A stretch of 64,000 bases of DNA from Zobellia uliginosa (GTDB taxonomy: Bacteria; Bacteroidota; Bacteroidia; Flavobacteriales; Flavobacteriaceae): positions 1 through 64,000 of the forward strand of contig NZ_JAHKPY010000001.1 in NCBI RefSeq assembly GCF_018860745.1, in the 5' to 3' direction. Under the pieces are notes generated by a model that searched no databases, was not told where the DNA came from, and worked only from the letters and a program-made list of their open reading frames with translations. Below are positions 43,354 to 63,212 of this stretch, piece by piece (position 1 is the first letter of the stretch; each line of letters starts with the position of its first letter). The position numbers and the translations under genes are program-made.

Positions 43354-44493
43354 TTATCTATACGAAACGGCAATCTTGGCCAGTTGGCCTACAATTTTAA
43401 CCGAATCTTTCATAGATAGCTTAGAACCATCTGCATGAATCCATCTTTTAAGTGGCTGTTCACAAATAATACGCTTGGCTTCTTCTTTGCCATAATGCTT
43501 TCTCATTCGCATAAAAATCTCCACATCAAAAAGCCATTTGGTAATGAACTTTTTATTGAACATGGTAGAAGCTATTTCACGGTCCATTATTTTGGCACCA
43601 CACTGCGTATCCTTAAACGGCATACCTAAAATGGTCTGTATGATCATATTAATGGTCATACTTATGATTTTACGAGCGGATTCTTTAGTGATGTTCGCTC
43701 CCATTCTACTGATTCTGGAACCGCTCACAATCTTAAACTGAGAACTCTCTATAGTTTTAACTAAATCGTCAAAATCTCTAAAGTCAGTGGAAAGGTCAGC
43801 ATCCAAATAGCCTAAATAATCTAATTGATCGTCTTTTATCATATGCAAGATACCCTGCCGAACAGCTTCTGCTTTACCTCCATTCTTTTCACAATCGTAC
43901 ACACTTATATTAGACTCGTTTCCTTTGCGCAATTCATGTAGCACCTCTAAAGTTTTATCGGTACTTCCATCGTTTACAAAACATAAATGGTATCCTAAAT
44001 TTGCATGGGCAAAAGCTTTAAATTCCGGACCGGACAAACGTTCCTCTTCATTATAACATGGTATAACTACTCCTACACAATGCTTCTGCAGCATTTGAGC
44101 GTCTTCATTTGCTCCTGTTTTCACTTGAATTTCTGGCGCTCCGATAATACGTTTTATACGCGCCGCCATTTCATCAAGACTTACCGGCTTTTTCATGTAA
44201 TCATTTATACCTAAGTCAAAACCATCCACAATTATTTTCTCATCCGTATTACCGGACATTACTAAAATGGGAGTATCGGATTTCTTTTCCGAACGAATAT
44301 GTTCTACAACATTAAGCCCGGACATACCCGGCATATTAATATCTACAAGAACTAAATCTGGTGCAAAATTATCAAATATCTCTACACCTTGCTCCCCAGA
44401 GGAAGCTGTTTTAACATCATAACCCAACTCTAAAAGTCTTTTCTCTACGGAAAGCAAAATTAATTGCTGGTCATCAATGGCTAATATTTTCAT
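43354..44493 (-). CDS. Receiver domain fused to a family 2 glycosyltransferase
   Basis: 379 aa. Residues 1-120 are a canonical response-regulator receiver: acid pair D7 D8, phospho-acceptor D51 in LVLVDINMPGMSG, and the conserved Lys in DYMKKPVS. Residues about 138-379 are a GT2 enzyme of the dolichyl/polyprenyl-phosphate sugar transferase type: VVIPCYNEEERL, FVNDGSTDKT, the DxD site in GYLDADLSTD, and KDTQCGAKIM. There is no membrane anchor and no DNA-binding output. The design suggests that phosphorylation controls sugar transfer directly. Last gene of the flippase/GT4 operon. Kinase donors are probably those of the 56513-62751 operon (inference). Confidence 0.92.
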   Translation of the reverse strand: MKILAIDDQQLILLSVEKRLLELGYDVKTASSGEQGVEIFDNFAPDLVLVDINMPGMSGLNVVEHIRSEKKSDTPILVMSGNTDEKIIVDGFDLGINDYMKKPVSLDEMAARIKRIIGAPEIQVKTGANEDAQMLQKHCVGVVIPCYNEEERLSGPEFKAFAHANLGYHLCFVNDGSTDKTLEVLHELRKGNESNISVYDCEKNGGKAEAVRQGILHMIKDDQLDYLGYLDADLSTDFRDFDDLVKTIESSQFKIVSGSRISRMGANITKESARKIISMTINMIIQTILGMPFKDTQCGAKIMDREIASTMFNKKFITKWLFDVEIFMRMRKHYGKEEAKRIICEQPLKRWIHADGSKLSMKDSVKIVGQLAKIAVSYR

Positions 44494-44532
44494 GGTTGTA
44501 TTTTTAAGAAGATTTGGGATTCTAATCTTTTA

Positions 44533-45771
44533 TTATGCTTTTACTTTTTCGTGCGTTAGTCCAATGGCGTTGACATCTATAATCTGTCCTTTAGATTTTT
44601 GAACCTGAATGGCTTTAAAATAATCCAAATACATTTGGGTAATAGTACTCATTGGCAGGGAACAAGCTGCCGCATAATTAGTTTTTGCCAGCTCCGTTCT
44701 GTAGGCATCATCCGTAAGTATTTTTTCTATAGCATCGGCAAGGGACTCTTTGTTCTCAGGTAAAAAGAATTCACCTCTATAGCCTTCTTCCTGAACCAAA
44801 ACACTTAAGTCTCCTAAGTCCGGTAGTGCAACTGCTTTTCCATAGCTTCCCGCTTGGTGCAATACTCCTGAACTACCTGTAGTAGATGTATACGGAAAAA
44901 CTACAACCGCACTCTCTCCAAAAATAACAGGAACGTCTTCTTCGGCCACATAACCGGTAAAACGTATTTGTGGTACATGGCTATATACTTCTTCCATTTT
45001 CTTTAGATAACCTGGTGTATTAGGGCTATCCGTACCGGCAATAACAATTTCTATATCTTCATTGCTTCTATTACGGATGACCTCTACGGCCTCTATAAGA
45101 ACCTCTACTTTTTTGTACGTGCCAAACTTACCGAAAGCCATAACCTGTTTTGGTCCTTCAGGAAGGCCAAAGTCCGGCTCTGGAGGCGTTTCAAAAGAAC
45201 CATGGGGAATTAAAGCAACATTTTTAGCTTTATATTTGCCCTCAAGAATAGTTACATATTTACTGATCGTTACTGCCAATATATCCGATGCCAGAACAAA
45301 CTTCGTTAAAGTCGTTCCTATGAATCCGTATATACTCTGAAGCAATTTATTTTTTGTGAATCCGGCACTATCCAAATCTACTTGCTCCAAAATATTATGC
45401 AATAATGATATGGTAGGAATACCTTTAAACTTTGTTATGTAAGGCAACATCAAACCTAAAGCTGCCGGTATTTTTTTATCCCCGAATTTTAAAAACTGTA
45501 AATTATAAAGTACAGCATCGGGCTTATGGGTTTTAATAGCCTTATTAACCGTTAGTATGTTTGAATAGCTATTGAAATCCCAACACTCCGATACAGTAAT
45601 CTTACAACCCTCGCCTTCAAAAGAAAGGTCTTTTGGCGCTTCCGTTATATCGGTCATCAAAATTATTTCTGTGACTTCTTCTTGCAGTCTAAAGTGCTTT
45701 ACAAGATAATATCCATACTCTGTTAAGGTGACTTTACTTGGTGGATATGCGGTTACAATGGCTAATTTCAT
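44533..45771 (-). CDS. Glycosyltransferase family 4
   Basis: 412-aa GT-B fold glycosyltransferase, retaining type. N-terminal domain begins MKLAIVTAYPPSKVTLTEYG. The C-terminal nucleotide-sugar domain shows VMAFGKFGTYKKVEVLIEA, IVIAGTDSPN, RFTGYVAEEDVPVIF and the donor-site GSSGVLHQAGSYGKAV with its Glu/Gln-type position changed to Gln. Cytoplasmic, assembling the repeat unit or polymer of the local exopolysaccharide. Lies between the flippase and receiver-GT2 genes. Confidence 0.92.
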   Translation of the reverse strand: MKLAIVTAYPPSKVTLTEYGYYLVKHFRLQEEVTEIILMTDITEAPKDLSFEGEGCKITVSECWDFNSYSNILTVNKAIKTHKPDAVLYNLQFLKFGDKKIPAALGLMLPYITKFKGIPTISLLHNILEQVDLDSAGFTKNKLLQSIYGFIGTTLTKFVLASDILAVTISKYVTILEGKYKAKNVALIPHGSFETPPEPDFGLPEGPKQVMAFGKFGTYKKVEVLIEAVEVIRNRSNEDIEIVIAGTDSPNTPGYLKKMEEVYSHVPQIRFTGYVAEEDVPVIFGESAVVVFPYTSTTGSSGVLHQAGSYGKAVALPDLGDLSVLVQEEGYRGEFFLPENKESLADAIEKILTDDAYRTELAKTNYAAACSLPMSTITQMYLDYFKAIQVQKSKGQIIDVNAIGLTHEKVKA

Positions 45772-45825
45772 ATTATTGGTTTAAGGTTTGGGGCTATTTA
45801 TCTTGTGTTTTTAGTTAGATATAGA

Positions 45826-47070
45826 TTACCATTTTCGGAATAATTCCTTTTTAGCGAAATATGCCAGTTGAACTACAAGTAGTATGGACATGGCAATCAA
45901 TTGCATATAGACTACACTTTCTAGATTTTTATGATAAAGCATTACTAACACTATTTGCGAAAGGCCTAATACTCCCGAAAGAATAACAGGTACATAATGG
46001 TCTAAGGACAAAAAATAGTAGGCAAAAATATTTGATATGGCAAACAATGAGGTTGCCAGTGCGTACTGCCATAATAAGCTAGACATAGCCACATAGGAAT
46101 CACCGAACATTAAAGTGATAATAAGTTCTGGAAAAAGATAGCACGCCGCAACTATTCCCGCCGAAAGCAGGCCTATATAGGATACATATTTAAACAATAT
46201 GGGCGCCGTTGGCTCTCCGTCTTTTTGCTTCTGCACAACAACGGGAAGCAATAACATTACGAACATCCAAGCTACAAAATACACTACTCTACCTATTAAT
46301 GCCAAAGAGGCATATAGTCCTGCTTCCATTGGCTCAAAATAGTGCTTGACCAGTAGTACATCACTATTATTTATGATAATTTGAGTTAACTCATAACAGG
46401 CGGTCAGCCATATAAATTGAGAAACTCGTTTTGCATTTTCAGGTTGTAATTTTCTAGATTCCCTAAATGAGATAGATTTACTATCCGAAGGAAAAAGTCC
46501 AAATAGAAAAGATAAGAATATACCCAAAGCCACTAATGTGCCAGGCTCTAAGTCTAAAAGGAAAAGCAAAGCCATGGTTAGTAATAACCGGCTCCACATC
46601 TCCGTTTGATAGGTAATGGATAATTTTCCAAACTCTTGCTTGCCTTGGTATGCTCCCCTATTAACACTCATGAAAAAGTAAATAGGTATACCTACGCCAA
46701 AAACAACGAACATCCAATGGCTTTCCGTATTGAATAATGATTGCAGCTGTTTTGAAAAAACCAGAATCAGTAATCCAATTATTAAACCAACAATACTTGC
46801 TTGACGGTAACTGATGTTCTTAAAAACATCCCATTCGCTACCTGAAAAAATTACCGCGAATTTTGCCGTAGCTAATTGAAACGTCATTCCCATAAAGGAC
46901 AAGACCAATAATAAGGTAACTAAAAGTGCCGCTTCAGAAAAAGCAGCCGGACCTAAAAGTCTACCCAACAAAAGATTATATAGGTAATTTCCGCCATTTA
47001 CCAAAAGTACGCTTCCCATGAACAATTGTTCCTGAGATACTTTTTTGAACATTAATTTGATGGCTGTCAT
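45826..47070 (-). CDS. Polysaccharide flippase-like membrane protein (MOP superfamily, PelG/Wzx-like)
   Basis: 414 aa with about twelve transmembrane helices, oligosaccharide-flippase/polysaccharide biosynthesis protein type (GGNYLYNLLLGRLLGPAAFSEAALL at the start, FISVNRGAYQGKQEFGKLS-like loop in the middle, NNSDVLLVKHYFEPMEAGLYASLALIG). It would move a lipid-linked sugar or assist polymer export across the inner membrane. First gene of the leftward EPS operon, divergent from the 1028-aa membrane protein gene. The pairing of a GT4 enzyme and this flippase recalls PelF and PelG, but no other Pel protein is recognised. Confidence 0.87.
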   Translation of the reverse strand: MTAIKLMFKKVSQEQLFMGSVLLVNGGNYLYNLLLGRLLGPAAFSEAALLVTLLLVLSFMGMTFQLATAKFAVIFSGSEWDVFKNISYRQASIVGLIIGLLILVFSKQLQSLFNTESHWMFVVFGVGIPIYFFMSVNRGAYQGKQEFGKLSITYQTEMWSRLLLTMALLFLLDLEPGTLVALGIFLSFLFGLFPSDSKSISFRESRKLQPENAKRVSQFIWLTACYELTQIIINNSDVLLVKHYFEPMEAGLYASLALIGRVVYFVAWMFVMLLLPVVVQKQKDGEPTAPILFKYVSYIGLLSAGIVAACYLFPELIITLMFGDSYVAMSSLLWQYALATSLFAISNIFAYYFLSLDHYVPVILSGVLGLSQIVLVMLYHKNLESVVYMQLIAMSILLVVQLAYFAKKELFRKW

Positions 47071-47609
47071 TATTTATACTATTTATATAATTCCTACATT
47101 TTTGGGCAATTTCTATATTTTTCTATATCTCGTAAAATATCTATAGCATTCTGTTTATCAAAACATCACATTTATAACAAGTAAAATTTAGAACTCATTA
47201 CGTAAACGCCAATTGCATTAATTATTGTAGGATTTAACTTATAATCGATAAAATGTATCATTTCATGGAATTATTTTACCTTTCATCGATATTACTAGCT
47301 TTTAATACTTAATTATATTTCCGTTTTGTGATATGTTATATACTGATAAATAGAATCTACCTTCTGTATTAACTCTTTTTTAATCTGCTGTAATGCAAGT
47401 AATTATTATTCAATAACTGATAAAGTCAGTTACTGTAAATATCATTTATACTTGTAAAATTACCGTCAACTACCGTCTTTTTTACGGTCAAAAAGTCCAC
47501 TAGCGTTTATCTATAGACCAATGGCTCAAAGCCTTAGATAGGCAATACCATCGATGAAATACAATATATATACCTTTATAATGTTATATTTTCTGACAAA
47601 TAACCACCA
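47071..47609. other. Divergent EPS control region
   Basis: 539 bases between the two EPS operons. Notable items are TACCGTC repeated with a 10-base period (47461 and 47471), an inverted ACGGT at 47483-47488, and the 21-base-period pair at 47491-47520. TACCTTTA (47571-47578) is a near -7 box for the rightward operon. No gene seen. Confidence 0.5.
47491..47520. promoter_or_regulatory. Weak LytTR-type direct repeat in the EPS control region
   Basis: AAAAGTCCA (47491-47499) and TATAGACCA (47512-47520), period 21, six of nine bases equal. The second half-site is close to TGTAGACCA at 62811. Weaker than the three other sites and oriented towards the leftward operon, whose start is about 420 bases away. 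Confidence 0.35.
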
Positions 47610-50600
47610 ATGCAACGCACCAATGTTTTATTGATTTTGGCACTGGTCATAGGTATCGCATTTCATGGGTCTAGTATCTTCTTTACTCTTGAGACTACCT
47701 ATGATGCCCTGATTCATTTGTTTTTTGCGGACCATTATGCCAATAGTTGGTTTGAACCATGGGACTATCGTTGGTATACGGGTTTTACGGTGCAGGCCTA
47801 TCCGCCACTGGTGCACCAGTCCATTGGTATTCTTTCTCATATTGGCGGACTCAAATTTGGCATGTTCACCGTAGCCATGATAGGTATTGTCCTGTTTATT
47901 ACGGGTGCATACAGGTTTGGATTATTAATGACAGGAGACAGAAAAATTGCCGGGTATACGGCAATACTGGCTGTATTCTCTTCCACATTTGTAGAAACCC
48001 TTCATATCTTTGGTCAATTACCCAGTATCATTGGTTTATCGGTTCTATTGCATTCATTGCCTGAAATATATCTTTGGGTCAAAACAGGTAAAACTAGATA
48101 TATTGTCACAAGCCTTTCCTTGATAGCCGTTACCGTAACTTCTCACCATGTAACTCCTATTTTTGGTATGGTATTCTTTATTTTTCCATTATTGGGAATG
48201 GCCGTTATGGACTCTGCCAGGGATCAGGTCAATAGTTTTAAGGAAGTTCGTTTTGGTGTATTTTATAAGCAATTCAAAAAGTGCTTCTGGCGCATAGTCA
48301 TATTCGGGTTTTCATCATTATTTCTCATTGTAACCTGCATCCTTCCCTACTGGATAAATTCAAAGAAAAACCCTATTACCCAAGTACCTATTCCACATGG
48401 TTCACGAGATAATTTTCTAGAAGTAACCTCATCTGGATTAGTGTTTTTTGTTATCCCTTGGGGGATTTTGACTTTTGTACTCCCTTTTCTTTTCTATCGC
48501 TATTACAGCAGACGATACATCTTTTTTGGTTTATCGTTTTCTATGTTAACTCTTTTAGGAACTGGTGGTACCACACCTCTTCCGCTAATATTATTGGGCG
48601 AAACCGCATTTAATATTTTAACCTTAGACCGCTTTACCCTTTGGGCAACTATTATGGCGCTTCCCCTATTTGGAGAATTCGCTTACCGTATGGTAGAGGG
48701 GGATCTTAAAGACCGTATTCAGGAAAATTGGGGCCGCGTTTATCATCGTATTCTGGGTGGTGTTATTGTAGGAGGCATTCTGTTCATGGTTATTTTTACC
48801 ATGAGTCTGGGCTATTTTAGACCTTCACAACCACAGAAAATTAAGATGCAACCCATCATTAACTTTCTAAGTCAGGATTCTCATGACCATTGGCGCTATT
48901 TACCTTTAGGTTTCGGTGATCAAATGGCATGGCTGTCCGCTCAGACAAAAGCTATGACCGTAGATGGTAATTATCATTCTGCTCGCCGGTTACCAGAGCT
49001 TACTACAAGAGCCATAGAACGACTAGAAAATTCAAAATTTAGAGGTGTTGAAGGTATCGGTTCTTTACAGCAATTCTTAACCGTACCCGAGAAATACAAC
49101 CTTAAATATATATTTTCCAACGACAAATTCTATGATCCCATTCTCTATTTCTGCGGATGGCAACGATTACAGCAACTGGAGAACGGCATTATGGTCTGGG
49201 AGAAATTAAATGTGCCTCCTTTTCCCACAATAATGCCCAAAGAAGATGTGCATGTAGCCTTAAAAGTGATGTGGGGCATCATACCTATTCTTACGGTTGT
49301 AATTGCCTTTATCATTAATATTCAGTGGATATGGGTCAGGGCTTTAAAGGCTAGAGATTTACCACAGGGCGAGTTTATGAAATATGCGATTGAATTTAAA
49401 AACTTCCCAAAAAAACTAATTATAATAAATCATATTTGGGCGGTTATCATATTAATCGTACTGGGGTTTGGAATTCATTTTTTCTATATTAAAAACGTAG
49501 ACCAGATTGCACCTACCAATGTTGTGGAGGCCTATTACGATGCTATTGACTTCAAAGAATTTAACAAGGCGCATTCCTTTTTGAATCCTGATAGCGGCAA
49601 AACCATTGCCCAATATATGTTGGAGGTTTCGGTAACGGATGGCATTCTTAGTTCCTATGCCAAACTAGATTCCTTAGGTATTGAATTTTTACAGGAAAAT
49701 GATACCAGTGCGCGGGTGAAAGCTGCTACTAGATGGATTACGCCTTTAGAAAGTATCAACAAAGATTTTTACCACAGTCTTATTAAAAAGGAAGGCAAAT
49801 GGTATATTGAACCTTCTTCATTGGACAATGATTTGCCACCGGACCAACTGTTCACTTCGAACAATACCACTTTTTTTAATCATGGTAGGCGAAAAATAAC
49901 GACTCAACAGACCCACCACGAAGATGTTTTAAAGCAGCCTGTTCTAGAAGTACTTAAAGCCAAACTGGTACAATACCAAGGTAGCTACAGTATTATTGGG
50001 GAGCTCCAAAATGTAGACCACGTACCTGCGGATGTGGTCATTAAGGGCACACTTTATAACGATGAGAACAGGCAACTGGCCACCTATAATGCAAAAGATG
50101 TTGCCAAGCACAAATTGATGCCCAAAGAAACTACGACTTTTAGAATTGATTTTGAAGGTATTGCATGGTCTTCCACTAAAGACACTCTACCCCCTACTTT
50201 TGATCCGGACCAGTTTACACCTATGACGTTTGAAGAGCAACCTACAAAATTTAACCTACAGTGCGCGGGTAATGTTGCCAATACAGATTTATATAAACAG
50301 GTAAGTCTTCAAGAGCTTGTTTTTGAGGATGACCGAATAAGTGGTACACTCTTTAATTCAGGAATTCAAGAAGTAACCATACCTCAACTTTTGATATCCT
50401 ATTATGATGAAAACAAAGACCTTTTATGGGTTGAACATGAATTTCTCACGGATGGGGTTCGCATTCAAAGAAAACGGTATTTTGAATATGAAACTGCCTG
50501 CCTTACCGAAATTACGCTTATCAATAGCAGTTTAAAAAATTGTTTTGTGAACGGAAGTCCAAATTCGGAGATTAGTAAAAAGCTTTTCCCCGAAAGAGAT

Positions 50601-50696
50601 ATTTCTCATGCCGAAGACCAACTACAGCCTTATTCCGGACATGGCTTTGAATATTTAAAATTTGAGTTGAACAGTTACATTGGCAATCCAAAATGA
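47610..50696 (+). CDS. Large polytopic membrane protein of the EPS system (PTPS-related / GT-C-like)
   Basis: 1028 aa. Residues 1 to about 620 hold ten or more transmembrane helices. The first periplasmic loop has TTYDALIHLFFADHYANSWFE followed by PWDYRWYTGF, an Asp-x3-His arrangement reminiscent of GT-C glycosyltransferases and of the 6-pyruvoyl-tetrahydropterin-synthase-related membrane domain found in polysaccharide loci. After the last helices (about 540-560 and 600-625) come soluble extracytoplasmic domains: an NTF2-like segment (VVEAYYDAIDFKEFNKAHSFL) and two FxLYD-like beta domains. Probably polymerises or transfers sugar outside the inner membrane. Its stop overlaps the next start (ATGA). 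The family assignment is tentative. Confidence 0.75.
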   Translation: MQRTNVLLILALVIGIAFHGSSIFFTLETTYDALIHLFFADHYANSWFEPWDYRWYTGFTVQAYPPLVHQSIGILSHIGGLKFGMFTVAMIGIVLFITGAYRFGLLMTGDRKIAGYTAILAVFSSTFVETLHIFGQLPSIIGLSVLLHSLPEIYLWVKTGKTRYIVTSLSLIAVTVTSHHVTPIFGMVFFIFPLLGMAVMDSARDQVNSFKEVRFGVFYKQFKKCFWRIVIFGFSSLFLIVTCILPYWINSKKNPITQVPIPHGSRDNFLEVTSSGLVFFVIPWGILTFVLPFLFYRYYSRRYIFFGLSFSMLTLLGTGGTTPLPLILLGETAFNILTLDRFTLWATIMALPLFGEFAYRMVEGDLKDRIQENWGRVYHRILGGVIVGGILFMVIFTMSLGYFRPSQPQKIKMQPIINFLSQDSHDHWRYLPLGFGDQMAWLSAQTKAMTVDGNYHSARRLPELTTRAIERLENSKFRGVEGIGSLQQFLTVPEKYNLKYIFSNDKFYDPILYFCGWQRLQQLENGIMVWEKLNVPPFPTIMPKEDVHVALKVMWGIIPILTVVIAFIINIQWIWVRALKARDLPQGEFMKYAIEFKNFPKKLIIINHIWAVIILIVLGFGIHFFYIKNVDQIAPTNVVEAYYDAIDFKEFNKAHSFLNPDSGKTIAQYMLEVSVTDGILSSYAKLDSLGIEFLQENDTSARVKAATRWITPLESINKDFYHSLIKKEGKWYIEPSSLDNDLPPDQLFTSNNTTFFNHGRRKITTQQTHHEDVLKQPVLEVLKAKLVQYQGSYSIIGELQNVDHVPADVVIKGTLYNDENRQLATYNAKDVAKHKLMPKETTTFRIDFEGIAWSSTKDTLPPTFDPDQFTPMTFEEQPTKFNLQCAGNVANTDLYKQVSLQELVFEDDRISGTLFNSGIQEVTIPQLLISYYDENKDLLWVEHEFLTDGVRIQRKRYFEYETACLTEITLINSSLKNCFVNGSPNSEISKKLFPERDISHAEDQLQPYSGHGFEYLKFELNSYIGNPK

Positions 50697-53480: not shown

Positions 53481-53783
53481 CTAGGCTTGATTGACTCCCA
53501 ATATATGCGTTGAATTTATTTCCTGTAGAATAGACAGAACATCTGCATTCTTTTTTCCAAGGATGGTTAGTTGTCTATTATTTTTGATAGCGTTTTCATA
53601 TAATTCTTTAAGAGCACTTGCTCCATTTACATCAATACTGGTGATGCGTTCCAAATTTATGACGATTCGTCTATCCGAACCAAAATATCTACCAATATGA
53701 CGGCTAAGAATGGTGGCACTATTACTATTCAATGTTCCATAAATGCAAAATATTCCACGGGACTCTGCGATTTGTAAAGGCAT
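53481..53783 (-). CDS. STAS-domain protein without the canonical phosphoserine
   Basis: 100 aa single STAS domain (anti-sigma-factor antagonist type), with GIFCIYGTLNSNSATILSRHI and VINLERITSIDVNGASALKEL. At the loop where SpoIIAA has Asp-Ser-Ser-Gly, this protein has D51-V-N53-G, so the phosphorylatable Ser is replaced by Asn. It may bind a partner constitutively or be regulated otherwise. No anti-sigma kinase gene is nearby. Its promoter region carries a LytTR-type repeat (53863-53892), placing it in the same regulon as the sensor operon. Confidence 0.88.
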   Translation of the reverse strand: MPLQIAESRGIFCIYGTLNSNSATILSRHIGRYFGSDRRIVINLERITSIDVNGASALKELYENAIKNNRQLTILGKKNADVLSILQEINSTHILGVNQA

Positions 53784-53819: not shown

Positions 53820-53892
53820 CAAAATATGAAATGACGTACAGAAGGTACGAAAATAAATGCACTGTAGATAGACAGTAAATAACTGTAGGTGA
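53820..53892 (-). promoter_or_regulatory. STAS promoter region with LytTR-type direct repeat
   Basis: TGTAGATAG (53863-53871) and TGTAGGTGA (53884-53892) are direct repeats with a period of exactly 21 bases (9-base half-sites, 12-base spacer). A near -7 box (minus strand TATTTTG, 53820-53826) lies about 40 bases downstream towards the STAS gene. Confidence 0.65.
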
Positions 53893-56509: not shown

Positions 56510-56512
56510 ACT

Positions 56513-57229
56513 TTAAACCAAATTTAAACGCCTCATGAGTTCTGGTCGATTTGATCGACTAATGGGAATTACCATCTTTTTAATTAATACACTATTATCC
56601 TCTATATCAATGATTTTAGTAAAGTTGATAACGTAGGACCTGTGAATTTGAAGAAATATTTTTTCTGGTAATTTATCCTTTATTTTCTTAAGTGTGGTAT
56701 GTACGCGGTAATCTTTATTTTCGGTTGAAATATCAATATAATCTCCTTTTGCCTTAACCACCAATATTTCATCAAAATGAAGCTTTATCAATCGCTTATC
56801 TATGTTGATATAAAGATCTTGGACAGCATCTGTATTAGAAATAGACCTTGTATTAGGTGCAGCTGTAGGTTCCTTGTCAAGAGCTTTTTTTATTTTTTGT
56901 ACGGATTTTTCAAATCTATCTGCAGTTAAAGGTTTAACCATATAGTCTACAATAGCCTCATACTCATAAGCTGCGATTGCAAATTCAGTATCAGATGTTG
57001 TCAAAACAACCTTTGGACAATTTTTTAAAGTCTGTACAAAATCAACACCGCTAAAACCGGGCATATGAATATCTAAAAAAACGACATCTACGTCTTGCTG
57101 ATTCAAAAATTTAATAGCGTCTATAGCATTATCATATTCACCAACCACATCTAACTCAGGAATTCCAGAGCAATGTTTTGCTACTATGGCCCGTGCCGTT
57201 GCCTCGTCATCTACAATAATACAAGTCAT
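56513..57229 (-). CDS. LytTR-family response regulator
   Basis: 238 aa. Receiver domain 1-120 with acid pair D7 D8, phospho-acceptor D53 in VVFLDIHMPGFSG, TTSDTEFAI and the Lys of DYMVKPLT. A LytTR DNA-binding domain covers about 135-238 (LYINIDKRLIKLHFDEILVVKAKGDYI, LQIHRSYVIN, ISRSNRPELMRR). Output regulator of the operon, receiving phosphate through the Hpt protein encoded four bases upstream. Direct repeats with LytTR geometry in the same block are its likely targets. Confidence 0.95.
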   Translation of the reverse strand: MTCIIVDDEATARAIVAKHCSGIPELDVVGEYDNAIDAIKFLNQQDVDVVFLDIHMPGFSGVDFVQTLKNCPKVVLTTSDTEFAIAAYEYEAIVDYMVKPLTADRFEKSVQKIKKALDKEPTAAPNTRSISNTDAVQDLYINIDKRLIKLHFDEILVVKAKGDYIDISTENKDYRVHTTLKKIKDKLPEKIFLQIHRSYVINFTKIIDIEDNSVLIKKMVIPISRSNRPELMRRLNLV

Positions 57230-57233
57230 GCTA

Positions 57234-57551
57234 CTATAAGGTTTTAAGAAAAGCTTCTATATTAATTAAAGTGTGTCTAAAATCTTGGTCCATATCTGTC
57301 TTACCGTCGCGTAGTTGTTCCTCAAAAGTAACTGCGTATCGGTATGCTTCTTCCATGCTTAAAATATTGAACTTATGTTTTAATTTATGCACAACATCCG
57401 CAGCTTCCAGATTGTCTTTACCATCTATGTGTTCTTTGTAACTGGCAAACTCCACAGGAAATTCATCCTTCAAGATAGAAATAAATTTTTGTTCGAACTC
57501 TATATCGTCTCCAGATAATTCTTTAATATATCTAAGGTTAGGCTGTTCCAT
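57234..57551 (-). CDS. Histidine phosphotransfer (Hpt) protein
   Basis: 105-aa four-helix-bundle Hpt. The phospho-acceptor is His55 in VVHKLKHKF, followed by the helix FNILSMEEAYRYAVTFEEQL. It shuttles phosphate between a receiver-bearing partner and the LytTR regulator, or between the NahK-like kinase, the single receiver (62350-62751) and the receiver-GT2 protein. The usual Gly after the HxLKG motif is His here (LKH). Gaps of four bases on either side show tight operon packing. Confidence 0.9.
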   Translation of the reverse strand: MEQPNLRYIKELSGDDIEFEQKFISILKDEFPVEFASYKEHIDGKDNLEAADVVHKLKHKFNILSMEEAYRYAVTFEEQLRDGKTDMDQDFRHTLINIEAFLKTL

Positions 57552-57555
57552 AACA

Positions 57556-58614
57556 CTATTTTTTTAACGTAAACGAAAAATCTGCTCCCATATTCTCCTC
57601 GGACTTTAATTCTATAGAACCACCGTATAATTTGATAATTTTTTTAGCCAACGCCAATCCTACACCTGCAGCGCTATCATTATTCTCTAATTTTTTAAAC
57701 ATTTCAAAAATCGATTCTTGATGTTTAAGTGGAATTCCTTTTCCGTTGTCCACTACAGAAAACTTCCAAAACTCTTTATCTTCTTCATATTTTATAGTGA
57801 TAATACCTTTTTCTAAATGTTCAGTTGCGGTAATTGCGTTGGTTGTTAAGTATGCGAAAACCTGTTCAATCAGATGTTTTTCAATATGGATTACCGGAAA
57901 ATGAGCATCATAATTTAAACTCACATTGTCAGGTAAAGGCAAATAACCCTCTATTTCCTTTAGTAGGATATTGATATCAACATTCATTTTAGATTCCATC
58001 TTAGAACCAATTGTAGCGTGCTCTAGAATTCCATTTATCAGGTTGTCCATTTTAACCAAATTTTCCGAGGCTAAGTTCAAATTTTCCTTGCCCTCCTCTG
58101 ATATATTGTTTTCACAGTCCTCCTTAATCCAGCTTAATAAAGCGTTTATATTACGAATAGGAGACTTTAAATCATGCGATACCATTTGCACGTAATTATT
58201 AAGTGACTCATTTTGAGATTCTAAATCTTCAAAAAGTAAGTTTTTTTCTTCTGTGATTTTGGCTACCTGGGCAGCCAAATGACTAATATGTTTTGCGAGT
58301 TTTTCTACATCAAATTCCTTACTTTCCTCTTCCTGTAATTGGTCTTCTGTTACTAGATTTGTACTCAAACTATCCATTGCCAGTTCTAGGGACACTAAAA
58401 TTTTCTTTTGTCTTTGTGCCTCTTTGGTCAACTCTCTATTTGCCTTAAACAATTCTTCTGAGCTAATTGTAGTAGCCCTTTGGATCATACTTAGCTTTTC
58501 ATCATAATTCCTGTAAGACATCTCTACGGCATCCAAGAACTTCTGCATCTCAGTATCTTCCCTGAGATGGGCAGGTAGGTTTTTCTTTAGCTGTCGTTTT
58601 AAAAGGGAGTGCAT
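57556..58614 (-). CDS. NahK-like histidine kinase paired with FIST protein
   Basis: 352 aa, no membrane segment. Residues 1-135 are coiled-coil (MHSLLKRQLKKNLPAHLR, EMSYRNYDEKLSMIQRATTISSEELFKANREL), closely recalling the N-terminus of NahK, the NosP-associated kinase of Pseudomonas. HisKA has His147 in MVSHDLKSP; HATPase motifs are NAITATEHL, DNGKGIPL and GVGLALAKKI. The start ATG shares a base with the FIST gene stop (TAATG), so the pair is coupled, as NosP-NahK pairs are. It probably exchanges phosphate with the Hpt encoded next. Confidence 0.92.
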   Translation of the reverse strand: MHSLLKRQLKKNLPAHLREDTEMQKFLDAVEMSYRNYDEKLSMIQRATTISSEELFKANRELTKEAQRQKKILVSLELAMDSLSTNLVTEDQLQEEESKEFDVEKLAKHISHLAAQVAKITEEKNLLFEDLESQNESLNNYVQMVSHDLKSPIRNINALLSWIKEDCENNISEEGKENLNLASENLVKMDNLINGILEHATIGSKMESKMNVDINILLKEIEGYLPLPDNVSLNYDAHFPVIHIEKHLIEQVFAYLTTNAITATEHLEKGIITIKYEEDKEFWKFSVVDNGKGIPLKHQESIFEMFKKLENNDSAAGVGLALAKKIIKLYGGSIELKSEENMGADFSFTLKK

Positions 58615-59747
58615 TATTCGCTAAATAAGGTTAAGGTCATAGTTTGGTTATGTAATTTACAGGCATCCTGACCAGCAAATGGAGCCATTTCTCCGTAGGA
58701 ATAAAAGCCAGTGATCGCTGTTCTATTTCCAATTACCGATATTACTTCTTCTACTTCTTCTTCCGTTCTCTGATCCATTACTAATTTTCTTCCAACACAG
58801 CTGACCAAAATAGCCAGTTCTGGCTTATTTTGTCTGCCTTTCATAGCATACTGTGCCGCCATACTTGCACCATCAACTATATCATCTACCGTAGACATCA
58901 TTAATTGCACACGTGCGCCTTCAGGAACATCTCCTGCCAAAGTCATGGTATTGGCATCATCGTCTATGGTAAGAATTGTTCGTACCAGAGGCTCTGCTTT
59001 TTCATTTATACGAACACTTAATGGGTAAAGCAAAGCAGATGTTGGCAACTCCTTTGCTTTTTCTCCCAAATATTTTTTATATAAATCCAAAGCAGGTTGA
59101 TCATCCAATTCAAAAAGTATGTTTTTTTCTGATTTTGTTATAATGCGTTCTGGTCCAAAGGGTGTCCAACCTCCATAATTGGCACTTGTTATTTCCAAAG
59201 ATTTACCATAAAAGCCAATGGCTATTATCTCTCCCTCCTTTGGGCTCTCATTGTAGGACGCAAGGGTTCTTTCAAAACGATCATCATCACCGCATAAACC
59301 GCCGGATAATCCAATATTATTTATCCTAACGTCTTCAAAACCTTCTATTAAAGCACTACCGTTTATAGAACTTCCTTCAGATACCAAGAAAATATGTTTT
59401 AAGCCTTCCTTGGAAAATTCATTGAGTAGCTTTTGTCCTAATTGATGCTCATCACTAGCTTCAGAAACATTCTTTCTCTTTACCTCAAAATTACATTTCT
59501 CAAACTCGATAGCAGTTAAAGAAACTGAACCTTGACGTACCGAATCTTCTATAATTTCACCTGCAGTACTACCAAAAACAATATGCCCATCTGGAAAAAG
59601 CGCTTTTACTTCTTTTAAAAGTGCTTGGTCTTCCAAAGCATATCTATTACCAAAAACTAAAACTAAAGGGTTATTTAACTTATGCTCGTTACCATTTAAT
59701 ATACGAAACGGTTGCTTTGCCTCTTTTACTGCCTGTGTAATTTTCAT
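58614..59747 (-). CDS. FIST-domain sensor (NosP-like)
   Basis: 377 aa with FIST_N (about 30-220; IVFGSTAGEIIEDS, GLSGGLCGDDDRF) and FIST_C (about 230-370; ITGFYSYGEMAPF, LHNQTMTLTLF) domains. FIST proteins sense small ligands; a subgroup (NosP) binds heme and nitric oxide and controls its cognate kinase. Heme ligation cannot be confirmed from sequence here, but the coupling to a NahK-like kinase and an H-NOX gene in the same operon supports gas sensing. Soluble and cytoplasmic. Confidence 0.9.
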   Translation of the reverse strand: MKITQAVKEAKQPFRILNGNEHKLNNPLVLVFGNRYALEDQALLKEVKALFPDGHIVFGSTAGEIIEDSVRQGSVSLTAIEFEKCNFEVKRKNVSEASDEHQLGQKLLNEFSKEGLKHIFLVSEGSSINGSALIEGFEDVRINNIGLSGGLCGDDDRFERTLASYNESPKEGEIIAIGFYGKSLEITSANYGGWTPFGPERIITKSEKNILFELDDQPALDLYKKYLGEKAKELPTSALLYPLSVRINEKAEPLVRTILTIDDDANTMTLAGDVPEGARVQLMMSTVDDIVDGASMAAQYAMKGRQNKPELAILVSCVGRKLVMDQRTEEEVEEVISVIGNRTAITGFYSYGEMAPFAGQDACKLHNQTMTLTLFSE

Positions 59748-59749
59748 TT

Positions 59750-61738
59750 TTAGCTATTAAGGTTAGTTGGTTCTTTCTTGATGGTAAAGTGAAATTCAGT
59801 ACCCATATCTTTTTCACTCTCCACCCACACTTCGCCTTCATAGCGATCTATAATTTTTTTAACTATTGATAGTCCTATACCCGTAGACCTTTCGTTTGCT
59901 CCTATGGATTGAAAGATCTCGAATATTTTCTTGTGATATTCCTTAGGTATCCCCACTCCATTATCTTTTATAGAAAACTGCCAATGTGATCTGTTTTCTA
60001 CAAATAATACTTCTACAAGACCTACTTCCTTCTCAATATGTACCACGGCATTAGAAAGTATATTTTGAAACAATTGATGCATTTTAGTGCGGTCTGCCGA
60101 AATAGTCGGTAATTTTTCCGGCACTACAAGATTTACATGTTCAGGTATGAATATACTTTCTTTTATACTTTCCACAACTTCATTTAAATCAACACTAGAG
60201 TTATCTAGAGCTGAGTTATTAGCTGTTGAGTATTCTAGAATTCCTTGAATTAATTTATCCATTGAAGCCACTTTTTCCTGCATCAATGTTAAATTCTCCT
60301 GACCTGCTTCATCCAGAACATCTTTGTAATCATCTTGAATCCAAGTAGCTAGAGCACTTATACTTCGTAAAGGAGACTTTAAATCATGCGAAACAATGTG
60401 CGCATATTCCTGGAGCCCCTTGTTACTCTGTTCTAATTCTTTTACCAATAGTTCTTTTTGTTCCTCAAGTAGTTTTTGTTCAGTTACATCCAAATGAATT
60501 CCAACTGAACCTATTAGTTTTTTATCATTGTCATAACGTGGTGCACCACTCACCAACCAATTTTTTTTGAGTCCCTCTTTATTTATTACTTCCAGTTCAT
60601 ATGAATTTGATTCTCCTTCTATTCGTTTCTCGTTTTCTTCATCTAGGACACTTTTATTTTGAACACTAAGTATATCACTTCCTTTTTTTCCTAAAAGTTC
60701 TTCTTCTTTAAAACCACTCATTGCGCAAAAACTCTGGTTTACAAGTTGAATAACATCATTAGTATCTACCTCTACAAGACCAAGATTCATATTGGCTATA
60801 ATACTGGCGTACTTTTCTCGCTCATAATTTAATCTCTCCTCTGCTTCGCGCTCTCTTGTAATATCTTCTACCATTGCCAAGGTGTACTTTAGATTTCCCT
60901 TAGCATCTCTAACCGCACTTACCGAGGTCTTGCCAACTAAGCAGCCCCCTTCTTTTTTATAGTATCGCTTTACAACTACTGCAGTGTCTATTTTGCCTTC
61001 AGCCATTTGCTTCCCAATTTCTTGAGATGGGGTTCCTTCAATATCCTTGGAAAAATCCGAGATTTGCATGGTTTTGAATTCTGCTTCTGTATACCCAAGA
61101 AGTTCCGTAAATGTGCTGTTGGATTTAATAATCTTACTACCTACGCTTAATACTATTCCCAAAGGAGAGCTTTCAACAATAATATCAAGCTGTTTTCTCT
61201 GTTGGTCCAACAATTCCTTAATCTCCATTTCTTGGGTAATATCTCTAATAATACCCTGAGCTCCAATAGGTTCTTGTTTTGTATTGTAAATTAAACTGCT
61301 ATTGATTTCTATCCACTTTTCATCTCCGTTCTTAACTGTAATCTTTGAGCGGTAGTTCTTAAGTGTGCCTATTTCTAGAAGATATTTAAACGATTCCGCA
61401 GTATATTGGAGATAATCCTCCTGTACAAGATTAGTTAGGTTAACCTTTTCTTTAGTGTTATCATAACCTAAAAATTCCTTGGCCGAAGCATTCATCTTTA
61501 TAACCGTGGCCTGAAGATCCATTACTACGTACGGATCTATGATATTAACAAAAACGCCATCTAGCTCGGAAACCTTTTCACTCAATAAGTTTTCGAGGGT
61601 ACTATTGGATTCCTTTAATCGTCTAGTGGTTTCGTAAAGCTCCGTAGATTTTTGTTCAAGGATTTTTTCAGCTTGTTGTCTGGCTTTCTTCTGCCGTTCT
61701 AATGCTCTTTTGAGAAGTTCAACTTCTTTATTATCCAT
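59750..61738 (-). CDS. PAS-domain histidine kinase (H-NOX-associated)
   Basis: 662 aa from the ATG at 61738 (MDNKEVELLKRALERQKKARQQ), which overlaps the H-NOX stop by eight bases (ATGGATAA); five more residues are possible from 61753. N-terminal coiled coil (1-60), three PAS domains (about 60-170, 180-295, 305-420), HisKA with the phospho-His in AHIVSHDLKSPLRS (residue 451) and HATPase (NAVVHIEKE, DNGVGIPK, GIGLSIVKKI). No receiver domain and no membrane segments. H-NOX proteins normally regulate a kinase encoded next to them, so this is the probable H-NOX partner. Confidence 0.92.
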   Translation of the reverse strand: MDNKEVELLKRALERQKKARQQAEKILEQKSTELYETTRRLKESNSTLENLLSEKVSELDGVFVNIIDPYVVMDLQATVIKMNASAKEFLGYDNTKEKVNLTNLVQEDYLQYTAESFKYLLEIGTLKNYRSKITVKNGDEKWIEINSSLIYNTKQEPIGAQGIIRDITQEMEIKELLDQQRKQLDIIVESSPLGIVLSVGSKIIKSNSTFTELLGYTEAEFKTMQISDFSKDIEGTPSQEIGKQMAEGKIDTAVVVKRYYKKEGGCLVGKTSVSAVRDAKGNLKYTLAMVEDITREREAEERLNYEREKYASIIANMNLGLVEVDTNDVIQLVNQSFCAMSGFKEEELLGKKGSDILSVQNKSVLDEENEKRIEGESNSYELEVINKEGLKKNWLVSGAPRYDNDKKLIGSVGIHLDVTEQKLLEEQKELLVKELEQSNKGLQEYAHIVSHDLKSPLRSISALATWIQDDYKDVLDEAGQENLTLMQEKVASMDKLIQGILEYSTANNSALDNSSVDLNEVVESIKESIFIPEHVNLVVPEKLPTISADRTKMHQLFQNILSNAVVHIEKEVGLVEVLFVENRSHWQFSIKDNGVGIPKEYHKKIFEIFQSIGANERSTGIGLSIVKKIIDRYEGEVWVESEKDMGTEFHFTIKKEPTNLNS

Positions 61739-62273
61739 TTTGAACAATATCAAATTTCACTTCGGTACCGTCATCTTTCAATAATTCATAACTGATTGTG
61801 GCCGTACCCCCAAAGTGTTCAAATGCTTTTTCTATAAGACCATGTGCCAAACGGTATAGACCTCTTGAGGAAGAATAGACCATGACAATATTCGTGTCCG
61901 TTTTATCCAGTATTTTAAATGTAGGTAGTTCTGCGTCTGGATATAGCTTTTTTACATGTACATGAATATGGTCTTCTATACAGTAAAGAAGCCCTAAAGG
62001 AGTATTGTAATTTTTAATGACCTCTGGATGGGAGTTGGCTAAACCTGCAAAAAGATACAGACCAAACGCATAAATAAGATCACCGACCGGAATTTTAGTT
62101 TCTTCACTTAATCCGGTAATAAGTGTTACCATCTCATTGAACTCATACGTTCCTACGGAAGTATAAATACCTTCAGATGGTAATTGACCATTTTCTATAA
62201 TATTATCTAGAGTCTCAAGGCCAAATTTTTGTTCGACCATCTCTAGAAACTCTGTAAAAACAATACCCTTCAT
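61731..62273 (-). CDS. H-NOX heme nitric oxide/oxygen-binding protein
   Basis: 180 aa, complete HNOB domain. The probable proximal heme ligand is His104 in the IEDHIHVHV segment, followed by KKLYPDAELPTF. The porphyrin-propionate motif YxSxR is intact (Y133, S135, R137 in VYSSSRGLYRLAHGL). Binds NO (and perhaps O2) and switches a partner kinase. Bacterial H-NOX proteins commonly control biofilm formation or quorum sensing. It lies 76 bases after the receiver gene and overlaps the PAS kinase gene. Confidence 0.95.
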   Translation of the reverse strand: MKGIVFTEFLEMVEQKFGLETLDNIIENGQLPSEGIYTSVGTYEFNEMVTLITGLSEETKIPVGDLIYAFGLYLFAGLANSHPEVIKNYNTPLGLLYCIEDHIHVHVKKLYPDAELPTFKILDKTDTNIVMVYSSSRGLYRLAHGLIEKAFEHFGGTATISYELLKDDGTEVKFDIVQNG

Positions 62274-62349
62274 ACTTTATGATTTATTAACTAAAAGTAG
62301 GAAAAGTTGTATTGTTTATATAATTTTTGTTGTGAAATGCACTATTCTG

Positions 62350-62751
62350 TTAGCCTTTAACCAATTGGTTGATGTCCCAGTACTCTAGAACTTTATGAAG
62401 TTTAGATTGATAATCTTCATATTTTAATGGTTTGATGACGTAGCCAGCTACACCCTTTTTGTAACATTCTAATAAATCTGCTCTATTTTCAGATGTTGTA
62501 AGAATAATTGTAGGAAGATATTTTAAAACTTCATCTTCTCTAAGAATACTCAAGAATTCTATACCATTCATTCGTGGCATATTAAGGTCCAGCAAAATAA
62601 TATCCGGCAACCTATTACCCGATCGTAAAATTTCTAAGGCATCTTCACCATTCTTGGTTTCAATAATATTATGCTTGAGTTCTAATTTTTTAACGGTCCT
62701 CTGTAATTTCATTACCTCAATAGCATCATCTTCAATTAACAAAATATCCAT
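62350..62751 (-). CDS. Single-domain response regulator (Rcp1/CheY-like)
   Basis: 133 aa receiver without an output domain. D8 and D9 form the acid pocket, D55 in IILLDLNMPRMNG is the phospho-acceptor, and TTSENRADLLECYKKGVAGYVIKPL holds the conserved Thr and Lys. Rcp1-type receivers pair with PAS/phytochrome kinases and act as phosphate relays or sinks, fitting a kinase-receiver-Hpt-LytTR chain. First gene of the sensor operon; the promoter has a perfect -7 box and a LytTR-type repeat. Confidence 0.94.
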   Translation of the reverse strand: MDILLIEDDAIEVMKLQRTVKKLELKHNIIETKNGEDALEILRSGNRLPDIILLDLNMPRMNGIEFLSILREDEVLKYLPTIILTTSENRADLLECYKKGVAGYVIKPLKYEDYQSKLHKVLEYWDINQLVKG

Positions 62752-63210: not shown

Positions 63211-63212
63211 AT

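Follow-up and report, generated by a model that had tools for sequence, protein, structure and literature searches.

Control of biofilm polysaccharide through NO and a phosphorelay has been described in two vibrios. In Vibrio fischeri, the NO/HnoX-controlled kinase HahK drives syp: the H-NOX protein is cistronic with a histidine kinase, the relay (HnoX-HahK-SypF/SypG) leads to SypG, a sigma54-dependent regulator of exopolysaccharide (EPS) genes, and a second branch, SypE acting on SypA, lies below transcription (PMC12369376, in its accessible text). In V. cholerae, NO-bound NosP inhibits VpsS, a kinase without a sensor domain that is cistronic with its NosP-type sensor and feeds LuxU and the biofilm genes (PMC6769237, likewise in its accessible portion). 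The synthase-dependent systems Bcs, Pga, Pel and Alg have an exporter made of TPRs and a 16-stranded barrel and a hydrolase in the cluster, Wzx/Wzy pathways have a flippase and glycosyltransferases, and the ArnC/ArnT, GtrB and DPMS/GT-C pairs couple a GT2 that makes a polyprenyl-phosphate sugar to a GT-C enzyme.

The locus described here lies in a 64,000-nucleotide stretch (the window) of the Zobellia uliginosa (Flavobacteriaceae) contig NZ_JAHKPY010000001.1. All of the ORFs named in a first-pass annotation were found where it had placed them, at 43354..62751, and Pfam domains were assigned to them; the gene set and its arrangement as first described are real. An Rfam search returned tRNAs and nothing else. 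The features are as follows.

43354..44493 (-) fusion of a receiver and a GT2 glycosyltransferase (REC-GT2; Pfam Response_reg 4.6e-27, Glycos_transf_2 5.6e-21)
44533..45771 (-) GT4 glycosyltransferase (Pfam Glyco_trans_1_4 5.6e-19)
45826..47070 (-) flippase-like polysaccharide transporter (Polysacc_synt_3 2.5e-10)
47508..47541 (-) weaker tandem direct repeat, candidate LytTR site of the flippase-GT4-REC-GT2 operon (score 12.7)
47610..50696 (+) 1028-aa membrane protein, probable GT-C, with a large non-membrane part (PTPS_related match below cut-off)
50693..51922 (+) lipoprotein, possibly with Ig-like domains (lipobox LFFGC from sequence; weak Invasin_D3)
51919..53442 (+) membrane-anchored GH5/GH2-like hydrolase (Cellulase 6.9e-16, Glyco_hydro_2_C 2.1e-12)
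53481..53783 (-) STAS protein (STAS 5.1e-8)
53859..53892 (-) tandem direct repeat CTACAGT-N14-CTACAGT, candidate LytTR site before the STAS gene, with the TPR-barrel gene divergent (14/14; PWM 24.1)
54004..56064 (+) predicted outer-membrane exporter, TPR plus 16-stranded beta-barrel (AF2 model; BCSC_C below cut-off)
56513..57229 (-) LytTR response regulator that probably controls the sensor operon and EPS genes (LytTR 1.1e-18, REC 5.3e-17)
57234..57551 (-) Hpt phosphotransfer protein (Hpt 22.2 bits, slightly below the cut-off of 24.6)
57556..58614 (-) histidine kinase 2, paired with the FIST protein (HisKA and HATPase_c)
58614..59747 (-) FIST protein, predicted NosP-like gas sensor (FIST 7.4e-43, FIST_C 8.1e-36)
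59750..61753 (-) histidine kinase 1, with a PAS domain; its gene overlaps that of H-NOX (Pfam)
61731..62273 (-) H-NOX haem sensor (HNOB 3.3e-36)
62350..62751 (-) stand-alone receiver, at the head of the sensor operon (Response_reg 6.1e-22)
62807..62840 (-) tandem direct repeat, candidate LytTR site before the sensor operon (12/14; PWM 24.1)

A phosphorelay responding to NO, or possibly to another diatomic gas, is likely to control this EPS machine on two levels; the most likely route would run to transcription through the LytTR regulator and perhaps also to an enzyme, REC-GT2. Like the V. fischeri system, the locus has an H-NOX gene cistronic with a histidine kinase gene and, as proposed, a phosphorelay to a regulator of EPS genes and a second branch below transcription; like the V. 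cholerae system, it has a NosP-type sensor cistronic with a kinase without a sensor domain, and its Hpt relay can be likened to the step through LuxU. Compared with the available accounts of syp, the sensors here adjoin the EPS genes and the operon includes a second, NosP-like sensor; the regulator is of the LytTR and not the sigma54-dependent type, a glycosyltransferase carries a fused receiver and the polymer is handled by another kind of EPS machine. Unlike NosP-VpsS-LuxU, again as far as its available description goes, the H-NOX is in the same operon, the output is a LytTR protein and the genome has no matches to c-di-GMP domains. The first-pass annotation had regarded control by phosphorelay as a distinct design; the lack of c-di-GMP domains stands, but the claim of novelty was too strong because the accessible parts of the Vibrio reports already describe NO-phosphorelay control of biofilm polysaccharide (PMC12369376, PMC6769237).

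The H-NOX and kinase 1 genes overlap at 61731-61753. The H-NOX protein aligns to solved H-NOX-type chains (6bde, E 4.8e-57) and keeps the YSSSR motif (YxSxR) and the proximal haem-His region; a response to NO is predicted. The FIST protein aligns along its length to the NCBIfam NosP model (75 bits over residues 25-354, the equivalog cut-off of 450 not being reached), so that the operon probably holds two gas-sensor/kinase pairs. Among Pfam domains, kinase 2 has no sensor domain besides HisKA and HATPase_c, as expected of a NosP partner kinase, and FIST and kinase 2 are present or absent together in 35 of 36 operons. The residues for phosphotransfer are intact: the phospho-Asp D53 of the LytTR regulator is found in 26/26 sequences, and both candidate histidines of the Hpt protein (55 and 59) in 28/28. 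LuxU is also an Hpt protein. In the proposed scheme, kinase 1 would be gated by H-NOX and kinase 2 by the NosP-like FIST protein, and phosphate would pass via the receiver and Hpt to the LytTR regulator. If Vibrio is a guide, the effect of NO would be less kinase activity and less EPS. A literature search on H-NOX with LytTR found nothing on this system in the accessible texts, where the one mention of LytTR concerns nitrosylation of AgrA.

Conservation of the EPS and sensor neighbourhood in related genomes had been set beforehand as a check of the first-pass annotation, and it held. A near full-length gene for the 1028-aa protein is present in 108 of 397 Flavobacteriaceae genomes, and the EPS core in 104 of the 330 better genomes, about a third. 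H-NOX occurs in 101/108 genomes with the 1028-aa gene (seven lack it) versus 41/289 without (raw counts that ignore kinship); four genomes with fragments of the 1028-aa gene (112 reduced to 108) and 13 with weak H-NOX matches (155 reduced to 142) were left out. Where both genes are on one contig, H-NOX is at most 32 kb from the 1028-aa gene in 84 of 86 genomes, being downstream on the opposite strand in 83 of those 84, and 254 kb and 2.3 Mb away in the other two. A chance neighbourhood was rejected, the rough expectation being 1-2% (32 kb either side in ~4 Mb); conservation across the family makes it more than chance. H-NOX is on a different contig in 15/101 genomes, and some of these contigs are long enough to indicate true separation (G009, G330).

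Shared ancestry alone, with two unrelated gene sets kept together by chance in one family, is a rival account of this pattern: the linkage counts ignore kinship, and carriers are found almost only in one family (0/23 genomes of other families and one of two non-self matches among 295 genomes of the class). It is nevertheless very improbable, since proximity to the sensor operon is kept despite several orders of the EPS genes, the repeats described below are conserved in distance and strand, and in other genomes the sensor operon goes with another EPS cluster. A relative outside the Flavobacteriaceae (G539) carries the EPS core with a receiver-less GT2 and with no sensor gene or repeat site in the 38 kb read, so the core can occur without the relay.

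Gene content was compared in 80 named loci, of which 12 were dropped because the contig was too short on one side, leaving 68 longer loci, and in the G loci (L019-L035). At least six pairs across the two sets look like one record each (L019/L036, L020/L037, L022/L038, L026/L039, L027/L044 and L028/L074); the sets are therefore not independent, and the GT2 tree includes duplicates.

Tandem direct repeats of the LytTR type with a 21-bp period are shared by the sensor, flippase, GT4, REC-GT2 and STAS operons, usually standing about 100 bp upstream of these genes (site distances use gene starts extrapolated from tblastn). LytTR sites are described in the accessible parts of two reports as two repeats of 9-11 nt with 11-13 nt spacing at target promoters (PMC4847170, PMC6193735), a description that the repeat geometry fits; the sites are candidates, read from sequence alone. 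In the window only three sites score 10 or more, one of them weak (12.7), and each precedes one of three operons. For the window scores (14/14 and 12/14) the control was 20 runs of an order-1 Markov model at period 21 alone. Across the 4.86 Mb genome, CTACAGT-N14-CTACAGT is the one place where the searched pattern matches without mismatch; the mismatch-tolerant pattern is hardly enriched genome-wide (222 versus 177).

The motif seed was the window's own two sites, so that only the remaining loci count as evidence. Training of the PWM used 19 sites from named non-Zobellia loci, which makes the counts in the named set partly circular; L116-L155 and the window lay outside training. In the loci without the 1028-aa gene, outside the training set, 34 repeats score 15 or more at period 21 versus 0-8 at eleven other periods. 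Repeats with a mapped neighbour are upstream on the same strand in 86/88 cases (named loci), 23/23 (window plus G loci) and 20/20 (loci without the 1028-aa gene); control periods also give upstream matches, up to 11 at period 22 and 8 at period 17. A site stands before the stand-alone receiver gene six times in the window and G loci combined, and 15 times where the 1028-aa gene is missing. Only 45/80 named loci showed an upstream site, namely 11/28 with a LytTR gene in view versus 34/52 without one in view; the three distinct genomes with Hpt but no LytTR match in view (L056, L061 and L074 = L028), a small number, have none. No mapped repeat site faces the 1028-aa gene or the TPR-barrel gene. 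The LytTR regulator would bind these repeats and activate its own operon and the EPS operons, giving a predicted regulon and operator (half-site consensus TCATCTACAGTAA, 21-bp period).

The sensor operon also precedes a Wzx/Wzy-type EPS cluster in 11 of 40 genomes without the full-length 1028-aa gene. These were 40 of the 41 such genomes with H-NOX (G197 was left out), some of the stretches end at contig ends, and two carry broken remnants of the gene (L122, L135). Its position beside two different EPS clusters makes the operon a possible general EPS controller, and as a marker it could serve to find further EPS systems. Together with the shared repeats, this second, unrelated cluster supports the linkage of EPS genes and sensors read by the first-pass annotation, and we infer that the two are wired together.

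REC-GT2 consists of a receiver (residues 1-122) and a polyprenyl-phosphate-type GT2 (residues ~138-379) whose closest solved structures are ArnC, GtrB and DPMS. In the proposed second branch, phosphorylation of the receiver would set the amount of polyprenyl-phosphate sugar made and act directly as a switch for polymer synthesis. Among the 77 named loci that have a GT2, 72 carry the fusion, the exceptions being four Aquimarina records and one MAG, and receiver-less GT2s occupy the equivalent place in L031, L032 and L035. The fusion state changes once on the tree of 112 GT2s. Two genomes with receiver-less enzymes keep H-NOX nearby (13.5 kb away in L035 and 31.5 kb in L031), so the receiver branch is not obligatory. 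All this lends weight to a reading that is quite possible, if on balance doubtful, in which the sensor operon acts on the polysaccharide genes at the level of transcription and the GT2 receiver answers another kinase or is structural only, with no direct branch. A merely structural remnant would not be expected to keep D8, D51, S80 and K102, which are found in 84/84 aligned fused receivers. No literature was found on a receiver fused to a glycosyltransferase with EPS, which is weak evidence of novelty as subscription papers are thinly covered.

Control on two levels would act on an unusual polymer route. The 1028-aa protein is probably a GT-C glycosyltransferase, judging from structural models: its AF2 model is poor (pLDDT 59) and gave recurrent matches to STT3, PglB, ArnT and DPY19 (E 3e-3 to 9e-2, none at or below 0.001) mixed with unrelated ones, while a profile search against solved chains gave no match. 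Mean column identity is 79% over 28 aligned sequences. PTPS function was rejected for this protein, as the PTPS_related match (PF10131, 19.9 bits, gathering score 26.4) is below cut-off and concerns a membrane domain. As in ArnC/ArnT-type pairs, a polyprenyl-phosphate-type GT2 accompanies the tentative GT-C enzyme, which would use the sugar donor periplasmically as ArnT uses the ArnC product; unlike in those pairs, the GT2 carries a receiver and has no TM-like segment, and its partner has 1028 residues with a large non-membrane part. The flippase (67/68 longer named loci; GT4 68/68) would move a lipid-linked precursor, and the lipoprotein (Invasin_D3 0.0049, below cut-off) and the hydrolase would act on the chain. 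The hydrolase has one N-terminal TM-like segment, and its solved relatives are beta-glucuronidases and, more weakly, GH5 enzymes. Unlike in Wzx/Wzy pathways, no Wzy, Wzz or initiating phosphoglycosyl transferase is among the annotated ORFs of the window's cluster, and queries for these three gave no match in L019-L035.

The polymer would leave through a BcsC/PgaA-like TPR-barrel. The exporter model (pLDDT 90.1) has 16 strands at residues 388-673, consistent with the TPR-plus-barrel exporters of synthase-dependent systems; its best solved match is BcsC (9b8a, E 6.6e-13, TM 0.36/0.44), alongside many generic TPR matches, PelBC (9h80) and the barrel 4y25 (TMt 0.82). The resemblance to synthase-dependent systems suggested at first thus extends to the exporter, with its BcsC-like fold, but not to the polymerising enzyme, which looks like a GT-C. 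As that annotation had stated, no Pel, Bcs, Alg or Pga synthase, nor any processive membrane GT2 synthase, is among the cluster's annotated ORFs, and Cellulose_synt has no match genome-wide (controls 4/14); the probable GT-C protein, flippase, GT4 and polyprenyl-phosphate-type GT2 stand in place of a synthase. The missing Cellulose_synt match would also suit a cluster that makes a glycoconjugate (for example a glycan carried by a lipid, a lipoprotein or a surface protein) exported or displayed by the TPR-barrel, as would the lipoprotein gene, which adjoins in 68/68 longer named loci, and the tendency of GT-C enzymes, including those among the fold matches, to glycosylate proteins or lipids. 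Such a product is unlikely rather than probable, given an exporter fold that is nearest BcsC and also matches PelB and the barrel of a polysaccharide secretin, a hydrolase gene in 68/68 longer named loci as in synthase-dependent EPS systems, and a sensor operon that also adjoins a Wzx/Wzy EPS cluster.

For a free EPS, control would again differ from that of Bcs, Pga, Pel and Alg. The absence of GGDEF, EAL and PilZ proteins first noted in the locus extends to the genome (99.99% complete as listed), where GGDEF, PilZ and EAL have 0 matches each (controls 8, 5 and 6 of 14), and no PilZ or GGDEF-type receptor for c-di-GMP control was found. Tentatively, and as a serious possibility, the locus may represent an undescribed class of polysaccharide secretion, with a GT-C enzyme fed by a polyprenyl-phosphate GT2, a BcsC/PgaA-like TPR-barrel and a donor step switched by receiver phosphorylation, in which, among marine Flavobacteriaceae, a relay that senses gas and can be coupled to different EPS clusters takes the place of c-di-GMP control. 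Searches on Zobellia EPS and related topics found nothing on this system in a literature whose subscription papers were thinly covered. The locus bears on matrix switching in bacteria without c-di-GMP signalling.

SypA of V. fischeri is a STAS protein. It speaks against the proposed reading that in the STAS protein of the window Asn is found where Ser is commonest, the aligned position being Ser in 23 and Asn in 8 of 57 STAS copies.

All genes named in the first-pass annotation of positions 43354..62751 were recovered in place by open reading frame and profile reading of the window, which comes from a genome of 4.86 Mb. The exopolysaccharide (EPS) genes form three groups: a flippase, GT4 and receiver-GT2 fusion (REC-GT2) on the minus strand; a 1028-aa membrane protein, a lipoprotein and a hydrolase, with overlapping genes, on the plus strand; and a STAS gene (minus) divergent from the gene for a TPR-barrel protein (plus). 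The sensor operon, on the minus strand, has the order receiver, H-NOX, kinase 1, FIST, kinase 2, Hpt and LytTR. No sensor domain was found in kinase 2 by profile search, and the FIST protein aligns with the NosP model over residues 25-354 with a score of 75, under the cut-off of 450. The nearest named relatives are Zobellia species, the best being Z. amurskyensis (96% over the 1028-aa protein). The reported lack of c-di-GMP proteins extends to the whole genome, where GGDEF, PilZ and EAL have no matches (found in 8, 5 and 6 of 14 controls, respectively); Cellulose_synt also has none in the genome and is found in 4 of the 14 controls.

The 1028-aa gene is present in 18 of 60 relatives searched and in none of the 23 of these that belong to other families. 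The EPS genes (GT2, GT4, flippase, 1028-aa protein, lipoprotein, hydrolase and TPR-barrel) are clustered in 17/17 neighbourhoods of 20 kb, with their order shuffled, and 15 of the 17 also contain some or all of the sensor-operon genes. The exceptions are L031, where H-NOX is 31.5 kb off, and L033, where it is on a different contig. Among 397 genomes of the family, the 1028-aa gene was found in 112, H-NOX in 155 and a FIST protein in 118. When near full-length 1028-aa genes (108 genomes) and strong H-NOX matches (142 genomes) were counted, 101 genomes had both, 7 the 1028-aa gene only, 41 H-NOX only and 248 neither (Fisher p 3e-51, without correction for phylogeny). The two genes share a contig in 86 of the 101 genomes and are on separate contigs in 15. 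The association proposed from the single window is thus a conserved neighbourhood in flavobacterial genomes, H-NOX lying no more than 32 kb from the 1028-aa gene in 84 of the 86 same-contig genomes, downstream and on the opposite strand in 83 of these 84; the other two pairs are 254 kb and 2.3 Mb apart.

Of 80 loci around the 1028-aa gene in named relatives, 68 were long enough on both sides to be counted. GT4, lipoprotein and hydrolase genes are each present in 68/68, the flippase in 67, TPR-barrel in 64, STAS in 43 and LytTR in 26; the sensor operon is frequently out of sight because the view stops ~13 kb from the 1028-aa gene start. Where LytTR or Hpt is in view the order of the EPS genes varies (for example, GT2-1028-GT4-flippase-TPR-LytTR; GT2-GT4-flippase-1028-TPR-LytTR; and, in L079, 1028-GT4-flippase-GT2-TPR-LytTR). 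In 35 of 36 operons, FIST and kinase 2 are either both present or both missing. A small GT2-like ORF lies immediately behind REC-GT2 in L034 (2939-3403) and L030 (16609-17085), and a second GT2 match occurs behind the REC-GT2 position in named Winogradskyella, Olleya, Lutibacter and other loci. In some relatives a large protein of 820-862 aa that looks secreted is encoded between TPR-barrel and LytTR (L032:16051-18513; L030:1077-3665); a partial relative of it, in L117, carries DUF4842 and DUF4114.

Loci were also read in 40 of the 41 genomes that have a strong H-NOX match and lack a full-length 1028-aa gene. Most retain receiver-H-NOX-kinase-(FIST-kinase)-Hpt-LytTR, and in 11 of the 40 (L116-L121, L130, L137, L139, L145 and L148) a different EPS cluster comes after the sensor operon; the sensor operon therefore adjoins EPS genes of two kinds. 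By Pfam, the cluster of L120 comprises a stand-alone receiver, a Bac_transf phosphoglycosyl transferase, OEP, flippase, Wzy_C and GT2, with Wzz at 20.2 bits, below the cut-off. Comparison with the L120 proteins found receiver, transferase, OEP, Wzz and Wzy in 11/11 loci, flippase in 10, STAS in 9 and GT2 in 6. A full EPS cluster was not identified in the remaining loci read among the 40; L126 and L129 have REC-GT2 and no 1028-aa gene, and in L122 (9499-9939) and L135 (6234-7262) broken remnants of the 1028-aa gene, intact in relatives, lie beside sensor-operon genes. The initiating phosphoglycosyl transferases of L120 (10449-11681) and L117 (8602-9843) have ~150 additional N-terminal residues and adjoin the intact stand-alone receiver. 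By eye the extension resembles a degenerate receiver without the phospho-Asp; it has no Pfam match in L120. The transferase and receiver are possibly a second, independent pairing of a receiver with a sugar transferase.

Comparison of Zobellia upstream regions revealed a tandem CTACAGT repeat with a 21-bp period before STAS and the sensor operon. When periods 20-22 are scanned across the 64 kb of the window, these two places alone reach 12/14, against an expectation of 0.1 for period 21. Genome-wide, only the STAS site is free of mismatches, and the sensor-operon site is among 16 places with one; at two or fewer mismatches there are 222 places vs 177 for the reversed control, so that relaxed pattern matching is unspecific. 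A matrix (PWM) trained on 19 sites from named non-Zobellia loci scores just three places in the window at 10 or more:

62807-62840, minus strand: candidate LytTR site before the sensor operon (PWM 24.1)
53859-53892, minus strand: candidate LytTR site before STAS (PWM 24.1)
47508-47541, minus strand: candidate LytTR site before the flippase operon (PWM 12.7)

The repeat recurs in relatives. In 76 named non-Zobellia loci there are 10 places scoring at least 13 at period 21 vs 0-2 at twelve other periods, and 36 vs 3-23 at a score of at least 12. At a PWM score of at least 15, period 21 was compared with eleven other periods: the 40 loci that lack the 1028-aa gene hold 34 places at period 21 vs 0-8 at the others, L027-L035 hold 13 vs 0-5, eight relatives from Zobellia 9 vs 0-2, and the named loci, training sites included, 106 vs 0-13. 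Published LytTR sites are described as repeats of 9-11 nt with spacers of 11-13 nt (PMC4847170); for a second class of LytTR systems, spacers are mostly of 12 bp (PMC6193735). The 21-bp-period repeats have this architecture, and LytTR is their predicted binder.

Sites with a mapped neighbour lie almost always upstream on the neighbour's strand: 86/88 in the named loci (a further 15 unmapped, 5 inside genes), 23/23 in the window and the other relatives' loci (1 inside a gene) and 20/20 in loci without the 1028-aa gene (14 unmapped), vs 0-11 such matches at six control periods. Measured to extrapolated gene starts, the median distance in the named loci is 101 bp for both GT4 and REC-GT2 and 89 bp for STAS; sites before the sensor operon have a median of 72 or 107 bp, and three flippase sites in the Zobellia set are 431-476 bp from the gene start. 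Mapped sites face neither the 1028-aa gene nor that of the TPR-barrel. The Bacteroidota -7 consensus is TAnnTTTG, and a similar element (at least 5/6) lies within 50 nt of 72 of 128 sites scoring at least 18, 33 of them at one shared offset, a count made without a control. At least one upstream site is present in 45/80 named loci, 5/8 Zobellia, 7/9 other relatives and 16/40 loci without the 1028-aa gene. Among the named loci the share is 11/28 with LytTR in view vs 34/52 without. Three distinct genomes with Hpt and no adjacent LytTR match (L056, L061 and L074/L028) have no upstream repeat in view, which fits LytTR as the predicted binder. In the Wzx/Wzy loci (n = 11) a site is present in 6, before the sensor operon in 5 and STAS in 1, and none precedes biosynthesis genes; in L153 one lies ahead of a gene for a UDP-sugar dehydrogenase. 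L124 (15328-15828), L125 (18664-19164) and L138 (11510-12010) carry similar genes for lipoprotein-like products of 166 aa, each behind a LytTR-type site, which may be a further regulon member.

The TPR-barrel model (pLDDT 90.1) has 16 strands. Among solved structures it is closest to BcsC (9b8a; E 6.6e-13, TM 0.36 and 0.44); other matches include PelBC (9h80), a polysaccharide secretin barrel (4y25, PgaA; TMt 0.82) and many generic TPR proteins. Matches for the GT2 portion of REC-GT2 are ArnC (E 1.1e-8), GtrB-type sll0501 and DPMS. The model of the 1028-aa protein is poor (pLDDT 59) and matches no solved structure at E 0.001 or better; STT3/OST, PglB, DPY19 and ArnT, all GT-C enzymes, recur at E 3e-3 to 9e-2 amid unrelated matches. 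An ArnC/ArnT-like division of labour between REC-GT2 and the 1028-aa protein is suggested. In the REC-GT2 receiver, D8, D51, S80 and K102 are kept in 84/84 copies. A midpoint-rooted tree of 112 GT2 sequences, of which 98 are fused and 14 are not (duplicates included), shows a single change of fusion state, vs at least 12 in 100 shuffles; support is low for the fused clade (0.55) and 0.92 for the main unfused clade.

Three of 295 genomes of the class match: the source genome, another member of the family, and G539, which lies outside the family. G539 (locus L189) has a cluster of the 1028-aa protein, lipoprotein, hydrolase and GT4 with a GT2 that lacks the receiver, and no sensor gene or repeat site within the 38 kb read; the EPS core can therefore occur without the relay. 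Judging from this one genome, the relay and the receiver fusion may have been added later, in the Flavobacteriaceae.

Control by phosphorelay had been proposed as a distinct design; phosphorelay-based NO control of biofilm polysaccharide is, however, already known from Vibrio fischeri and V. cholerae. In V. fischeri, HnoX inhibits HahK, which acts via SypF/SypG on syp, while SypE acts on SypA below transcription (PMC12369376), and in V. cholerae NO-bound NosP inhibits VpsS, giving less LuxU phosphate (PMC6769237). Unlike these, the Zobellia-type system has a predicted LytTR output whose repeats are conserved, a single operon with probably two sensor-kinase pairs that adjoins EPS genes, a receiver fused to a probable sugar-donor GT2, and a machine that combines a TPR-barrel with a probable GT-C enzyme, with a second EPS cluster in relatives; the Z. 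uliginosa genome also has no c-di-GMP domain matches. A literature search of incomplete coverage returned no paper on this relay/EPS system, and it is a realistic possibility that the EPS machine represents a new class.

Two further genes flank the cluster. At 34373-38671, ~5 kb away, a 1432-aa protein combines many PAS domains with the ATPase domain of a kinase. An ORF behind tRNA-Leu (63158-64000), running past the window end, resembles by eye a MerR-type regulator; a similar gene in L028 (677-3070) lies beside a phytoene desaturase-like gene, again by eye, which suggests a carotenoid cluster.
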